The position numbers and the translations under genes were made by a program. The notes below the pieces were generated by a model. That model did not search any database and was not told the DNA's origin. It saw only the letters and a program-made list of their open reading frames with translations. Positions 1,717 through 39,817 of a stretch of 41,873 nt of DNA are shown piece by piece (position 1 is the stretch's first letter; every line of letters starts with the position of its first letter). The stretch is from contig JALSSV010000074.1 in assembly GCA_026984045.1 (NCBI GenBank), forward strand, positions 1 to 41,873. Reading direction: 5' to 3'. This DNA is from Chromatiales bacterium (lineage in GTDB: Bacteria; Pseudomonadota; Gammaproteobacteria; UBA6429; Thiohalophilaceae).

Positions 1717-2751
1717 ATGCCCGCCTATACTGCCCACTCCACCCCGGCCGGCGATCGCACCGGGGTATTGCTGACCAATCTCGGGACGCCGGACTCCCCA
1801 GCGACGGCCGACGTGCGCCGCTATCTGGCCGAGTTTCTCGCCGATCCGCGCATCGTCGAGCGGCCGCGCTGGCTGTGGTGGCCGATCCTGCACGGCATCA
1901 TCCTGCGCCTGCGGCCGCGCCGGGCGGCTCATGCCTATCGCCGGATCTGGACCCCGCAAGGCTCGCCCCTCCTGACCCTCAGCCAGGCCCAGGCCGAAGC
2001 CCTGCAGGCGCGGTTGGGCGAGGCGGTTCCGGTGGTACTGGCCATGCGCTATGGCCGCCCCTCCCTGGCCACCGGGCTCGAGGCCCTGCGCCGCCGGGGC
2101 GTCGGCCGCCTGATCGTGCTGCCGCTCTATCCCCAGTATTCGGCCACCACCACCGGCTCCACCTTCGACGCGGTGAGCGCCGTGCTGGCCACCTGGCGGG
2201 AAGTGCCGGAACTGCGCTTCATCAGCCGCTACCACCACCACCCGGCCTATCTCGACGCCCTGGCCGCCAGCCTCCGCGAGGCCTGGGCCGAGCGGCCGCG
2301 GGCGCAGAAGCTGCTGTTTTCCTTCCACGGCCTGCCGCGGCGCTACGCCGAAGCCGGCGATCCCTATCCGCGGGAGTGCGAAGCCACGGCCCGGGCGGTG
2401 GCCCAACGGCTGGGACTGGGGGAAGACGAGTGGCTTTTGACCTACCAGTCCCGCTTCGGGCCCGAGGCATGGCTGCAGCCCTACACGGACGCGACCCTGC
2501 GCCGGCTGGCGGCCGAGGGGGTGACCTCGGTGGATGTGGTGGCGCCGGGTTTTGCCGCCGACTGCCTGGAGACGCTGGAGGAGATCGCCATGGAAAACCG
2601 CGATCTGTTCCTCGAGGCCGGGGGCAAGGATTACCGCTACATTCCCGCGCTCAATGCGCGGGAAGAACACATCGATCTGCTGGAGCAGCTGGTGCGGGCG
2701 CACCTCAAATCGACGTTCCGAACATCGGACCACTCAGGCAAGGGTGCCTGA
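1717..2751 (+). CDS. hemH: Ferrochelatase
   Basis: Encodes 344 residues and inserts Fe(II) into protoporphyrin IX, the last step of haem b synthesis, at the cytoplasmic side of the inner membrane. Recognisable blocks are GVLLTNLGTPDSP (residues 16-28), VLPLYPQYSATTTGSTFD (134-151), the catalytic histidine in LLFSFHGLP (His204), YQSRFGPEAWLQPYT (243-257), and the conserved acidic block DCLETLEEI (282-290). Length matches bacterial ferrochelatases (about 320-345). The usual C-terminus ends near LEQLVRAHL (residue 330). The last 14 residues (from KSTFRTSDH) are encoded mostly by the left end of repeat element A, so the stop codon lies inside the repeat. The ATG start leaves a short leader before the family-conserved block. 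Confidence 0.96.
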   Translation: MPAYTAHSTPAGDRTGVLLTNLGTPDSPATADVRRYLAEFLADPRIVERPRWLWWPILHGIILRLRPRRAAHAYRRIWTPQGSPLLTLSQAQAEALQARLGEAVPVVLAMRYGRPSLATGLEALRRRGVGRLIVLPLYPQYSATTTGSTFDAVSAVLATWREVPELRFISRYHHHPAYLDALAASLREAWAERPRAQKLLFSFHGLPRRYAEAGDPYPRECEATARAVAQRLGLGEDEWLLTYQSRFGPEAWLQPYTDATLRRLAAEGVTSVDVVAPGFAADCLETLEEIAMENRDLFLEAGGKDYRYIPALNAREEHIDLLEQLVRAHLKSTFRTSDHSGKGA

Positions 2752-2911
2752 TTCCAACATCGCCCTCTGGGACAGAGAGTCGTTTCGTGACACGCCGTGA
2801 ATACCTCCCTGTAGGCTCGACGGCCGCATCCCTGCGGCCGACGGTCACGAAACGACTCTCTGTCCCAAAGGGCTCAGTGCACACAATGAACCATGGTCTG
2901 GTATTTGGAAC
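2715..2911 (-). repeat. Nested-palindrome element, copy A (197 bp)
   Basis: Outer ends are imperfect inverted repeats, GTTCCGAACATCGGACCA at 2715-2732 and the complement of GTTCCAAATACCAGACCA at 2894-2911 (14 of 18 match). Inside are 30-bp arms at 2762-2791 and 2844-2873 with one mismatch (23 inner bp perfect). Between them is a 52-bp core (2792-2843) that matches copy B with one difference when read on the minus strand. On the minus strand the core holds a perfect 8-bp hairpin with loop GGGA (2821-2840) and a small TAC/GTA hairpin with AGGGAG (2802-2813). The left end overlaps the hemH 3' end. No ORF inside is credible. Confidence 0.9.
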
Positions 2912-2947
2912 TTCCATTTAGCCGTCACCCGGCGCAAAGGCCGGGCA

Positions 2948-3079
2948 GTAGGAGCGGCGCCCTCGCCGCGACAATGCGGTTGCTGGTAGCGGGGGACGGG
3001 TAGCGGGGAAAGGCCTTTTGGTTTTACCAGCAACCAGCTACCCGCTACCGCCGAATCGCGGCGAGGGCGCCGCTCCTAC
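2948..3079. repeat. REPIN (paired REP palindromes), copy 1, 132 bp
   Basis: A 24-bp sequence beginning GTAGGAGCGGCGCCC (2948-2971) is repeated perfectly in inverted orientation at 3056-3079. The spacer contains a second inverted pair, GGTTGCTGGT (2978-2987) with ACCAGCAACC (3026-3035), and GGGTAGCGG-type phrases that can pair with CTACCCGCTACC. The GTAGGAGC...GCCGCGA form resembles Pseudomonas-type REP sequences mobilised by RAYT transposases; no RAYT gene is in the window. The gap 2752-3127 holds only element A, this REPIN and a small hairpin (CCCGGC/GCCGGG, about 2929-2945). Confidence 0.9.
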
Positions 3080-9438: not shown

Positions 9439-9536
9439 GGTGAGAGCCCGGCCCCCCTGCGGCCAGGTCAAAAAAGAAAACCGGCACTTGGCCGGTTGCG
9501 AATCATCAGAATTTTGGCTCCCCGGGACGGGCTCGA
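9439..9536 (-). repeat. Duplicate of the tRNA-Asn 3' end plus terminator (att-like or pseudo-tRNA)
   Basis: This 98-bp stretch repeats 9620-9717 in direct orientation at a distance of 181 bp. Only four differences occur, all within the first 30 bp. It contains the last 22 bases of tRNA-Asn including CCA (minus strand, 9515-9536) and the tRNA terminator hairpin (9470-9497), but none of the 5' two thirds of the tRNA. The 83 bp between copies (9537-9619) are very GC-rich with local palindromes and no gene. The arrangement looks like paired attachment sites of a lost integrated element, or a collapsed tandem tRNA duplication. Confidence 0.8.
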
Positions 9537-9650
9537 CGATTTCGCCCGGAGCGAAATCGGCCGCGCGCCAGCGCGCCCGAAGGGGGGGCCCAGGGAGGGG
9601 CCGCCGCCACCGCCGCGGCGGTGAGAGCCTGTCCCACCTGCGGCCAAGTC

Positions 9651-9678
9651 AAAAAAGAAAACCGGCACTTGGCCGGTT
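9651..9678 (-). terminator. Intrinsic terminator of tRNA-Asn
   Basis: On the minus strand a perfect 7-bp stem (AACCGGC/GCCGGTT, plus-strand 9660-9666 and 9672-9678) with a 5-base loop is followed by a T-rich tract (TTTCTTTTTT). It lies 18 bp after the tRNA 3' end. An identical copy is at 9470-9497. Confidence 0.85.
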
Positions 9679-9695
9679 GCGAATCATCAGAATTT

Positions 9696-9771
9696 TGGCT
9701 CCCCGGGACGGGCTCGAACCGCCGACCCGGTGATTAACAGTCACCTGCTCTACCTGCTGAGCTACCGGGGA
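9696..9771 (-). tRNA. tRNA-Asn (anticodon GTT)
   Basis: The 76-base minus-strand gene folds as a standard cloverleaf. The acceptor stem is TCCCCGG/CCGGGGA, the D arm GCTC...GAGC, the anticodon stem GGTGA/TCACC with loop CTGTTAA (anticodon GTT), the T arm GGCGG TTCGAGC CCGTC, and the discriminator G is followed by encoded CCA. It has its own promoter and terminator, so it is a single-gene transcription unit. The duplicated 3' end nearby shows that this locus has been a recombination or integration target. Confidence 0.97.
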
Positions 9772-12861: not shown

Positions 12862-12908
12862 CGGAAAGGGAGGAAAAAGCGGGCGGGACGTCTCTGGGAC
12901 GGAGGGCC

Positions 12909-13110
12909 GTTCCGAATTACGTGAAATCCGGTTGTTTGCAGGCACAAAGCCGTCGAGGCCGGGAAGCCGTTTCGGGACCGTCGGCCGCAGGGATGCGGCC
13001 GTCGAGCCTACAGGGACGTATTCACGGCGTGTCCCGAAACGGCTTCCCGGCCTCGATGGCGTGCCAGATGCTGGCCCAACTTCGGTGGAAAGTGCACAGA
13101 AATTCAGAAC
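12909..13110 (+). repeat. Nested-palindrome element, copy B (about 202 bp)
   Basis: Outer ends are GTTCCGAATT (12909-12918) and the inverted AATTCAGAAC (13101-13110). The 30-bp arms lie at 12949-12978 and 13031-13060, with 26 inner bp perfectly complementary and one G/T mismatch. The 52-bp core (12979-13030) is nearly identical to copy A, but the arms share only their innermost bases with copies A and C (for example GTTTCGGGAC against GTTTCGTGAC). GGA-presenting hairpins lie at 12982-13001 and 13009-13020 on the plus strand. It sits upstream of clpB and downstream of the glutamate-synthase-like gene. Confidence 0.88.
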
Positions 13111-13144
13111 GGGGGTTCAGGCCAGAATCGGTTCCGCCCAAATC

Positions 13145-18342: not shown

Positions 18343-19359
18343 TCATTCGTCCACGTACTCCCATTCCCAGTCGCCTTCGTCCTCGTCCGTGTCGCTGCCG
18401 GCCCGGGCCTCGTCCTCGCGCAACTCGTCGAGCAGACGGCGCATGTCCTCCGGCAGCGGCGAATGCCATTCCATCTCCTCGCCGCTTTCGGGATGCACCA
18501 GGCCGAGGCGGCCGGCATGCAGGGCCTGGCGGCGGAAGCCGCGCAGGGTCTCGGCCAGGGATTCGCTGCATCCGGGCGGCAGACGCAGGCGCCCGCCATA
18601 GACCGGATCGCCCACCAGGGGATGCTGGAGATGGGCCATGTGCACCCGGATCTGGTGGGTGCGGCCGGTCTCCAGGCGGCAGCGGATCCAGGTATGGGCG
18701 CGGTAGCGTTCCACCACGCGGTAATGGGTGACCGCCGGCTTGCCGCCGGGGGTGACGGCCATGCGCTTGCGCTGCACGGGATGCCGGCCCACGGGCGCCT
18801 CCACCGTGCCGCCGGCCACCAGCACCCCGCTGACCACCGCCTGATACTCGCGCAGCAGGCTGCGCGCCTGAAGCTGGTTGACCAGGGCGGTCTGGGCCGG
18901 AAGCGTGCGGGCCACCACCAGCAGGCCCGTGGTGTCCTTGTCCAGGCGATGGACGATCCCCGCCCGGGGCAGCTTCGCCAGAGCCGGATCGTGGTGCAGC
19001 AGGGCATTGAGCAGGGTGCCGGTGGGGTTGCCCGCGGCGGGATGGACCACCAGCCCGGCCGGCTTGTCGATGACCAGCAGCTCCGCATCCTCGTAGACGA
19101 CCGTCAGGGGGATGGGCTCGGGGCGCCAGTCGCCTTCCGCTTCCAGCACCACCGCGAGCGACACCCGTTCGCCACCCATGACCTTGTCCCGGGCCCGCCA
19201 GATGGCTCCGTCCACGCGCACCCGACCGGCCTTGAGCCAGGCGGCCAGCCGGGAACGGGAATAGTCGGGAAACAGGCGGGCCAGGGCCTGATCCAGGCGC
19301 AGGCCGGCCAGTTCGTCGGGAACGATCTGCTCGAGCCGGGTTTCGGATTCGTCGTGCAT
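18343..19359 (-). CDS. rluD: 23S rRNA pseudouridine synthase RluD
   Basis: Encodes 338 residues. RluD makes pseudouridines in helix 69 of 23S rRNA (E. coli positions 1911, 1915 and 1917). An N-terminal S4 RNA-binding domain (about 13-75: [25 protein letters not shown]...) precedes the synthase domain with the catalytic aspartate in [17 protein letters not shown] (Asp140) and the [23 protein letters not shown] block. The C-terminus is unusually acidic ([16 protein letters not shown]). RluC is less likely given pairing with pgeF and divergence from bamD, which is the E. coli arrangement. The internal start [11 protein letters not shown] is used; the upstream open frame overlaps the divergent promoter region. 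Confidence 0.94.
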
Positions 19360-19414
19360 GCTGACAGCAGGTTGGCAAAGGCTCCATGATACCCCGTCCC
19401 GGCCGATGGGGGAT

Positions 19415-19443
19415 TTTTCAATCCCTCTCCGGGCGGGTATACT
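19415..19443 (+). promoter_or_regulatory. Candidate sigma-70 promoter of bamD
   Basis: TTTTCA (19415-19420), a 17-bp spacer and TATACT (19438-19443) lie just before bamD, giving a short leader of about 25 bases. The -10 element is good and the -35 is four of six. Confidence 0.55.
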
Positions 19444-19474
19444 GCGCTCCCCTCTTCGCACCGGTCCACCTGCC

Positions 19475-20275
19475 ATGGTATTGCGCCCCGCTCTCCTGCT
19501 CCTGCTGCTCGCCGCCCTGCTGGCCGGTTGTGCCGCCACCGGCGAGGGGGAGGACGAAACCGCCGGCATGAGTGCGGCGGAAATCTATGCCGAGGCCCAT
19601 CAGAAGCTGGAAGACAAGGAATACGAGACCGCGGCCCAGTGGTTCGAGAAGCTGGAGGCCCGCTATCCCTACGGCCCGTATGCCGAGCAGGCGCAACTGG
19701 AAGTGGCCTACGCCTACTACAAGGCCAACGAGCCCGAGTCGGCCATCCTCTCCGCCGAGCGCTTCATCAAGCTGCATCCCAATCATCCGAAGGTGGACTA
19801 CGCCTATTACCTGCGGGGCCTGGCCGCCTACGACTCGGATCAGTCCTTCATCAACAAGGTCTTCCGCCAGGATCCCACCGAACGGGATCCCAGGTCGGCA
19901 CGCCGGGCCTTCCGCTTCTTCAGCGAGCTGGTCAAGCGCTTTCCCGACAGCCGCTATGCCGAGGACGCCATCGCGCGCATGTACCGCATCCGCGAGGGGC
20001 TGGCCCGCTACGAGTTGCACGTGATCGACTACTACACGAGGCGCAGCGCCTTCGTGGCCGTGGCCAACCGGGCCAAGTACGTGGTGGAGAACTACCAGGG
20101 CACCGCCGCCGTGCCCAAGGCCCTGGCGGCGATGGTCAACGCCTACGTGGAACTGGGGCTGCCCGACTTGGCGCGGGACGCGCTGAAGGTGCTGGAACTG
20201 AACTATCCCGAGTATCGGGACATCGCAGGACTGCGCAAACAGGTGGCAGAGGCCGAAAAGGACGCGGCAGGGTGA
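19475..20275 (+). CDS. bamD: Outer membrane protein assembly factor BamD
   Basis: Encodes 266 residues. BamD is the essential lipoprotein of the beta-barrel assembly machine on the inner face of the outer membrane. A lipoprotein signal ends with LLAGC (Cys19). Five TPR-like repeats follow: [46 protein letters not shown], then [37 protein letters not shown], the [23 protein letters not shown] segment typical of BamD, and [18 protein letters not shown]. Length is normal (about 245-270). The start at MVLRPALLL is set by the signal peptide; the longer frame upstream is promoter. It is divergent from rluD. Confidence 0.95.
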
Positions 20276-20345
20276 ATTCGCGGCCCGTCTGCCGGATCCG
20301 CCGCTGCGCGGCCTGAGCCTGCCTGCATTCCACTGATTCCGTTCA

Positions 20346-20367
20346 TCGCGGCTTGCGCCGCTCCTAC
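20346..20367. repeat. Single REP sequence, copy 3
   Basis: The 22-bp sequence ending GCGCCGCTCCTAC is the same as the right REP of the pair at 9377-9398 except one base. No inverted partner is nearby. It stands 61 bp before nested-palindrome copy C. The whole 404-bp gap 20276-20679 is taken up by this REP and copy C. Confidence 0.8.
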
Positions 20368-20428
20368 ACGACCCGTCAAGCCATTCCTCTGACGTCGAAC
20401 CGCCACGCGGTGCAACGACTAAATGAAA

Positions 20429-20676
20429 GTTCCAAATACCAGACCATAGTTCATTGTGTGCACTGAGCCCTCTGAGACAGAGCGTCGTTTCGTGACCGTC
20501 GGCCGCAGGGACGATGTGCAGGACGCACAAGTGTCGCGAGAGGGCAGGATGCCCGAAGCGACTGCGGCCGTCGAGCCTACAGGGATGTATTCACGGCGTG
20601 TCACGAAACGACGCTCTGTCCCAGAGGGCGGTGTTGGAATCGGTCGCTCTTGCTCAAATGGTCCGGTACTCGGAAC
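20429..20676 (+). repeat. Nested-palindrome element, copy C (248 bp, with 51-bp insertion)
   Basis: Outer ends, GTTCCAAATACCAGACCA (20429-20446) and the inverted GTTCCGAGTACCGGACCA (20659-20676), match at 15 of 18 positions. Arms of 30 bp with one mismatch lie at 20467-20496 and 20600-20629. The core (20497-20599) is the 52-bp core of copies A and B interrupted by 51 bp (20512-20562) exactly in the hairpin loop. The insertion has hairpins TGTGC-AGGAC-GCACA (20515-20529) and GGGCA-GGA-TGCCC (20542-20554). A third small hairpin TACA-GGGA-TGTA lies at 20578-20589. Overall length equals copy A plus 51. It ends 3 bp from the glnB stop codon. Confidence 0.9.
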
Positions 20677-20679
20677 TTC

Positions 20680-21030
<351 letters not shown>

Positions 21031-39685: not shown

Positions 39686-39817
39686 GTAGGAGCGGCGCCC
39701 CCGCCGCGATTTTGCGTTAGTGGGTAATGGAGGTCAGGGAAAAGCGTGGTGATGTTACCCGCAACCTGCTACTCGTCACCCGCAACCTTCTGATCGCGGC
39801 GGGGGCGCCGCTCCTAC
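39686..39817. repeat. REPIN (paired REP palindromes), copy 4, 132 bp
   Basis: GTAGGAGCGGCGCCCCCGCC... (39686-39709) is perfectly complementary to 39794-39817. The total length equals that of copy 1 exactly. The spacer differs but again carries CACCCGCAACC and TACCCGC phrases. The 323-bp gap 39641-39963 between argJ and secA holds this REPIN and a short TTTGCACCTTTGCGTTG phrase near the secA end. No other gene or terminator is evident. Confidence 0.9.

Follow-up and report, generated by a model that had tools for sequence, protein, structure and literature searches.

The source paper for the Yersinia repeat YPAL is reportedly that of De Gregorio from 2006, the content of which is taken here from papers that cite it. 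In the parts of the literature available to us, its known hosts are Yersinia, Erwinia carotovora and E. coli, the last with three copies. According to the text examined of PMC2229807 (Delihas 2008), YPAL is without TA termini and has, at a dyad symmetry or beside it, target duplications of 3-26 bp, and the sequence printed for RU-2 of Y. pestis in Table 1b of PMC2759123 (Delihas 2007, seen in part) contains a hairpin with a GGA loop, followed by CGAGCCTACATGGATGTATTTACGGCGTCTTTAC. For the Csr/Rsm proteins, the portion seen of PMC4005645 gives as the high-affinity motif a hexaloop ANGGAX directly on a stem, while that of PMC7652899 gives the CsrA SELEX consensus RUACARGGAUGU, mostly in six-base loops, and a CsrA dimer that bridges sites 10-63 nt apart, best at more than 18 nt. 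The TwoAYGGAY RNA (RF01731), in which an outer stem encloses two hairpin loops with GGA, has been proposed as CsrA-binding (PMC4333381, in part). As far as these sources go, YPAL repeats are already known, and CsrA binding has already been suggested for RNAs with GGA hairpin loops.

The window analysed here is a stretch of 41,873 nucleotides from a draft Chromatiales genome, and three copies of a palindromic repeat, hereafter the carrier, were found in it. Copy A (about 2705-2921, minus strand) and copy B (about 12900-13118, plus strand, ends set by eye) are of the short form by sequence comparison, and copy C (about 20419-20683, plus strand), of the long form, differs from both by exactly 51 bases. 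The first-pass annotation had described these bases as an insertion at 20512-20562, and the letters bear this out: the insert is exactly 51 bp and stands between GGGA and TGCGGCCG of the carrier, the sequence running ...GGCCGCAGGGA (ending at 20511), CGATGTGCAGGACGCACAAGTGTCGCGAGAGGGCAGGATGCCCGAAGCGAC (20512-20562) and TGCGGCCGTCG (from 20563). It is the sole match in the window of R2, the 51-mer model (80.9 bits, E 5.9e-17). The terminal repeats of copy C are CTAAATGAAAGTTCC... and ...GGAACTTCTTAG; the right end is imperfect, TTCTTAG against TTCCATTTAG in other copies, and was set by eye. All parts of copy C are given for the plus strand. The arms of the outer stem, 20467-20496 and 20600-20629, are 97% complementary and covary over 45 short copies. 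Hairpin 1 is divided, by sequence and alignment, into a 5' half with GGGA at its end (20497-20511) and a 3' half (20563-20573), which are still able to pair as had been claimed, the complementarity between 20497-20508 and 20562-20573 being 92% despite the insert. Carrier hairpin 2 (CTACAGGGATGTA, with the bulge TTCAC) was placed at 20575-20597 by alignment and covariation.

The predicted sense-strand fold of copy C has -105 kcal/mol, and none of 200 shuffles was equally stable (mean -62.9, sd 3.95, z -10.66). Both hairpins that the annotation had read in the insert are present in this fold, namely M1, TGTGC-AGGAC-GCACA, at 20515-20529, and M2, GTCGC...GGGC-AGGAT-GCCC...GCGAC, at 20533-20562, which takes in the proposed GGGCA-GGA-TGCCC; the pairs of both are also seen over 29 aligned places. 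Two further GGA hairpins are indeed gained, but hairpin 1 loses its own loop when the insert is present, the long form having three GGA hairpin loops and one GGA, that of hairpin 1 at the junction, outside any hairpin loop. The hairpins do share a motif; however, carrier hairpin 2 reads ACAGGGATGT, and the common pattern is therefore CANGGANG or CAGGAYG and not the proposed GCAGG(G)A(T/C)GC. Among the copies of this genome the first hairpin of the insert shows paired changes, GTGC/GCAC versus GTCC/GGAC.

Copy C lies between two convergent genes, bamD (19358-20275, plus strand) and a P-II gene (20680-21018, minus strand), and by sequence the TAA stop codon of the latter comes from the TTAG at the right end of the copy. 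A simple consensus scan of 20200-20800 found no promoter- or terminator-like sites, an intrinsic terminator included, near copy C, and the Rfam gathering scan of the window returned one tRNA and nothing else. A tRNA gene (9699-9771) adjoins a direct duplication of 98 bp with 96% identity (9439-9536 and 9620-9717). Inverted pairs of another repeat, GTAGGAGCGGCGCC...GGCGCCGCTCCTAC, which is REP-like with a GTAG start, are present at 2948-3079 and 39686-39817.

The draft genome searched comprises 2,982,687 bases in 104 contigs and is 99.26% complete. A DNA search, the core pattern and 20 further stretches gave 62 carrier places, of which 60 were kept after removal of two artefacts: 46 short, 8 long and 6 others. 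Three of the others (L016, L039, L075) are copies with hairpin 1 lost, and the remaining three (L071+2855, L074 and L076-2120), apparently spurious or degenerate, were left out of the counts. One more long copy, L011, damaged in its 3' part, brings the long form to nine. The 58 carrier copies examined comprise 46 without the insert, nine with it (one truncated) and three without hairpin 1, so that the varying module number which the annotation had suggested looking for does exist: hairpin 2 only, two hairpins, and the long form. A covariance search gave 82 matches in this genome, which is not taken as the copy number because some of them may be antisense or degenerate. The insert was found at nine places by BLAST and at nine by R2, all nested in carriers; it is neither unique nor unrelated to other copies, and since nine copies have it at the same place it is not a chance occurrence.

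The carrier measures 217 bp without the insert and 268 bp when it is present. Terminal repeats CTAAATRGNNGTTCCGAAT are seen in many copies, clear at both ends in only part of them; the terminal inverted repeat pattern occurred 34 times forward and 28 times reverse, against 2 and 1 for the reversed-pattern control. No clear target duplication was seen at the carrier ends examined. The terminal inverted repeats make the carrier similar to a MITE, from which it differs in that no partner transposase was found: the DDE_3 transposase profile, covering that family only, had no match in the draft genome. An IS630-type transposase was considered as driver, and none was found in the genome. Two loci, L018 and L023, are carriers without the core, and from their sequence the terminal CTAAATG apparently provides the stop codon of the preceding gene; the terminal repeat pairs C21:32095-32213 and C72:14683-14799 are also core-less carriers. 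The idea that the core was inserted into pre-existing hairpins, with the outer stems as targets, was rejected for L018 and L023 on the letters, because core-less forms would be expected from deletion between the short direct repeats CTCTG and CAGAG in the arms.

The structure of the carrier was assessed on alignment A1, which holds 45 of the 46 short copies; the one omitted is L061, whose hairpin 1 is a base short. In the outer stem, hairpin 1 and hairpin 2 (3 bp, a bulge of five, 3 bp) taken together 98.7% of 2025 cells pair, both sides change in 28 of the 45 carrier pairs, and 23 of the 30 pairs of the 30-bp outer stem covary. The covariation score was 0.413, compared with 0.100 (sd 0.006) for shuffles and at most 0.085 for slid controls. 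This proves a hairpin and not an RNA, because DNA template switching can also keep perfect palindromes. Both loops conform to ANGGAN with one exception: among the 45 copies hairpin 1 has A, [G39 T4 A2], G (44 of 45), G, A, [T36 C5 G3 A1], and hairpin 2 has A, [G34 T7 A3 C1], G, G, A, [T19 G17 C8 A1]. The freely varying positions are those left open, as N and X, in ANGGAX.

For other organisms a wider search pattern was used, fixed on hairpin 2 only, which matched at least 119 stretches; among those listed are Stenotrophomonas, Yersinia similis, Rheinheimera, Shewanella, Marinobacter, Methylotuvimicrobium, Halopseudomonas and Ectothiorhodospira. The named-organism carriers among the matches listed are nearly all from Gammaproteobacteria, one (L180) being titled Rhodobacteraceae and a few only Proteobacteria. 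The listed stretches hold 125 matches, 122 of them with sufficient sequence. Hairpin 1 lay outside the search pattern, yet among these listed matches the GGA loop is kept in 108 of 122, on 77 different stems; among shuffles the figure is 152 of 2440 (6.2%). R1, the carrier covariance model, matches most of the 90 named-organism loci, is present in 20 of 40 family genomes and 48 of 274 class genomes, and matches the Y. similis loci L122 and L176 with E 3.2e-11 and 2.2e-9. Since R1 matches Y. similis, and the core printed for RU-2 in the part of the source seen is the same, the carrier belongs, as judged from its sequence, with the Yersinia repeat YPAL/RU-2. As far as the accounts of YPAL/RU-2 were available, the two are alike in core sequence and secondary structure, in intergenic position, in numbering tens of copies and in their internal inverted repeats, whereas YPAL/RU-2 is about 168 bp long and has no terminal TA, and the carrier has 217 or 268 bp and in many copies terminal repeats. 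With the same restriction, YPAL is now joined to repeats in Stenotrophomonas, Rheinheimera, Methylotuvimicrobium, Marinobacter and others. Carriers also form arrays, four copies in a Saccharophagus MAG (L094, 3103-3754) and six in Neiella litorisoli (L141, 4871-5815).

The insert also occurs elsewhere. A query of 76 bases, the insert with its flanks, matches 21 of 40 family genomes, and several of these matches cover only query positions 13-63, that is, the insert alone, with flanks unrelated to the carrier. R2 was found in 67 of 274 class genomes and 57 of 222 genera, with at least 21 matches in the richest genome; R1 and R2 occur together in 16 genomes, an association that is not significant (P 0.14). 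Alignment A3 took in 29 of 35 rows, leaving out L222 (the window), the second place in L227 and in L228, and, from L204 and L217, three matches to hairpin 2 of the carrier. Over the 29 aligned places 99.2% of 358 cells pair and the covariation is 0.227 versus 0.089 in shuffles; the count of further pair types in the 51-mer was not above shuffles, 84 of 500 reaching the observed value. No 51-mer was found in the 90 named-organism loci around carriers, and one 51-mer pattern gave no stretch in viral contigs. Phages gave one partial match (55% of the query, E 7e-3), and plasmids one record, of Lonsdalea populi, with the 51-mer antisense inside a primase gene. The Rfam gathering scan of eight loci with the 51-mer gave 16 matches, all tRNA.

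The surroundings of the 51-mer are of several kinds. Free 51-mers lie inside other hairpins, just after GGA, in L226, L227, L231 and L241, and within an array of GGA hairpins in L228. Others lie in degenerate tRNA copies, beside tRNA genes that are intact by ARAGORN: tRNA-Pro in L229, L234 and L235, and tRNA-Ser(GGA) in L230 and L238, here directly after the anticodon-loop CTGGA. The 51-mers of L260 and L267 are also near tRNA-Ser(GGA) genes, making tRNA-Pro/tRNA-Ser(GGA) a recurring site. When 29 loci were read, no 51-mer was located in L249 and L259, it was in carrier hairpin 1 in L243, L246 and L252, and L262 had a tandem pair. GGA stands at the left end in 3 of the 23 remaining contexts, L270 included (P 0.005), and in 8 of the 15 contexts of the 76-base query, although GGGA was already part of that query. 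A fixed tetranucleotide ahead of the insertion point was considered, and none was found in the left flanks; direct target duplication was likewise rejected, adjoining repeats of at least 2 nt being absent from the 38 contexts.

Six segments were compared with genomes of the same genus in an empty-site test. Two had exact empty sites, two were filled in the relative too, namely uvrD/rep (L281) and metE (L282, where 33 bases have been lost in frame), and in two the flanks were repeats (L248, L256). The first empty site is CGCGTCCTG^CGCCCATGG (L250 versus L284); the second is TTTCCGA^CTGAGGAAA, for which L261 was compared with another repeat, aligned in four copies from G310; in one of these copies the C that follows the site is replaced by T. 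At both sites there are 51 extra bases and no duplication beyond a possible single base. Seven protein genes hold the 51-mer in frame as 17 codons. Sense-direction read-through uses one frame, giving xDVQGxTSAAGGRMPGAx and the like, in MetE (L251), MurD (L262, tandem two), UvrD/Rep (L263), MetH (L264), a type I specificity subunit (L266) and ValS (L269), and the opposite direction is read in a class-V aminotransferase (L250). The 51-mer accounts for these 17-residue insertions in conserved enzymes; in the structures of ValRS (1gax) and of the MetH chain of 9ssp most of the inserted stretch is absent. In the aminotransferase gene of L250 the 51-mer is adjoined by a stretch (CGCCGCACAGGGATGTGCAAGTGCC, other strand) that resembles the initial part of another 51-mer, and L284 has this stretch too.

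From these sequences we conclude that the 51-mer is a very small mobile element with fixed ends, nested in a MITE-like one. Cyanobacterial small dispersed repeats are also of this very small mobile kind. Rickettsia palindromic elements and REPs, in the part of PMC3733652 seen, are similar to it as short non-coding dispersed repeats that also occur within genes. The 51-mer is set apart from these very small repeats by its 51 bp, its two GGA hairpins and its frequent site after GGA in loops, and its ends carry no GTAG or CGTC tag.

The annotation had seen in the insert modular growth by adding like hairpins. Hairpins of like kind are added, but not by copying the element's own, because both come as a preformed 51-bp repeat that is also free-standing with the same ends. 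Growth in place, with the extra hairpins duplicated from those of the carrier, would account for the similar loops in all hairpins and for copies with one, two and three loops; we consider it highly improbable in view of the free-standing 51-mers with the same ends, the exact empty sites and the absence from 20400-20700 of direct repeats reaching 12 nt. A single ancestral insertion, followed by carrier copying and carrier recombination with the 51-mer itself immobile in this lineage, is a more serious possibility, if not the one we favour: all nine matches in the genome are nested at one site, and long copies in other genomes (L203, L223, L224, L225, L243, L252) use the same hairpin-1 site, whereas the outer stems of the long copies differ from one another, the 51-mer elsewhere is free-standing with exact empty sites, and in L270 it sits in a carrier at another site, hairpin 2. 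As it is only found nested in this genome, the 51-mer may have spread here with the carrier. That the module is mobile and widespread, a 51-bp repeat nested in a relative of YPAL, is nevertheless, in our judgement, very probable.

The comparison with CsrB-like RNAs that the annotation had suggested is apt, the ANGGAX hexaloop on a stem being the high-affinity Csr/Rsm motif (PMC4005645, in part). Hairpin 2 agrees with 9-11 of the 12 SELEX positions in 45 copies (mean 10.1) and hairpin 1 with only 6-8. In M1, 12 hairpins have a six-base loop and agree with 9-12 of the 12 positions, and 17 hairpins have a five-base loop; the M1 of the window is among the latter, its loop lacking the N of ANGGAX. 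Two 12-mers of the window match at 11 of 12 SELEX positions, one being hairpin 2 of copy C, at 20577. By sequence, the GGA spacing is 20 nt in the short form and 23 nt within the insert. Like the CsrA-sequestering RNAs of the CsrB/RsmZ type, copy C has several GGA loops (ANGGAX or AGGAY) on stems at bridging distance; unlike them it is a dispersed repeat, with no promoter or terminator of its own by the consensus scan of 20200-20800, and no Rfam gathering match to such RNAs in the window. In a permissive Rfam scan of five loci the RsmY model reached only 16.2 bits (E 3.5), and Ysr224 (RF02770) matched the carrier weakly in antisense in three of the five (E 0.0004, 0.0016, 0.044), differing in its opposite strand and in 32.5 bits versus a gathering value of 70; other matches of that scan were taken as chance. 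The TwoAYGGAY model (RF01731) had no match in the genome at E 10.

Two CsrA genes are present in the genome, one with a canonical-looking sequence. In the class, 91 of the 99 genomes that hold R1 or R2 gave a csrA match, versus 144 of 175 others (P 0.03, uncorrected for kinship); the eight element-bearing genomes in which it was not detected include six that are 67-89% complete, G162 (95%) and G234 (98%). Between tandem genes the copies show no strand preference, 19 with and 16 against the genes (P 0.74), and 35 of 56 point the same way as the upstream gene (P 0.08); the gene calls came from a simple codon-usage script, which put 3 of 58 copies inside predicted genes. Judged by their loops, the hairpins of both units are rather likely to bind CsrA. 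A selected regulatory role of the copies is weaker than binding, and to us distinctly doubtful, because there is no strand preference and csrA was not detected in eight of the 99 genomes.

REP/REPIN hairpins are recognised by their transposases. The GGA hairpins could similarly be DNA features, single-stranded hairpins or cruciforms, for a mobilising enzyme, with no role of CsrA. The absence of strand preference agrees with this, as does the arrangement of 30 neighbouring carrier pairs (within 400 nt, named loci): 22 minus-plus, 5 plus-plus, 2 minus-minus and 1 plus-minus. The left and right flanks of the 51-mer moreover pair with each other above permutation in 38 contexts (14.53 own versus 12.77 swapped; 1 of 2000 permutations), the same test giving 85 of 2000 for the 23 R2-only contexts. 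The close fit of the loop variation to ANGGAX speaks for CsrA instead, and on the sense strand G-U cells exceed A-C cells, 14 versus 6, in the direction expected for RNA, which is not significant (P 0.12). We hold a purely DNA-based role to be rather improbable. Inverted doublets within 400 nt are common in the named loci (for example L133, L129, L166, L183, L115, L125, L171, L155), and the minus-plus ones recall REPIN or BIME doublets.

The explanation that we favour on balance is that copy C is a carrier of the YPAL/RU-2 type into which a second, independent 51-bp repeat was inserted. It draws on what the sequences show: the fixed ends of the 51-mer, its dispersal on its own in many class genomes, its insertion without target duplication, its frequent position just after GGA in a hairpin loop and its occurrence in frame in protein genes. 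Read-through from bamD would present carrier and insert as RNA, and the ANGGAX or AGGAY loops, 20 and 23 nt apart, may bind CsrA (RsmA) dimers. With the second pair of sites that the insert brings, up to two dimers could sit on a transcript of the long form, and such an RNA could act as a small decoy or a 3'-UTR site. Carrier and 51-mer are probably both selfish, with regulatory use by the host secondary. More speculatively, the 51-mer might be a mobile CsrA-site cassette, a ready-made pair of CsrA hairpins that inserts preferentially into CsrA-type loops, so that arrays of sites would grow by module transposition and couple a selfish element to a global regulator. The texts examined of PMC2759123 and PMC2229807 mention neither a 51-bp insert nor a link to CsrA for YPAL/RU-2, and the literature matches listed include no account of the 51-mer and no paper tying YPAL to CsrA; within that scope the 51-mer, its behaviour and the proposed CsrA link are new.

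At 51 bp, a repeat that moves precisely, without coding capacity or target duplication, comes close to the smallest size possible for mobile DNA. If the loops bind CsrA, genomes with many copies would hold a dispersed, evolving pool of CsrA sites, and the origin of CsrB/RsmZ-like RNAs from mobile modules would become testable.
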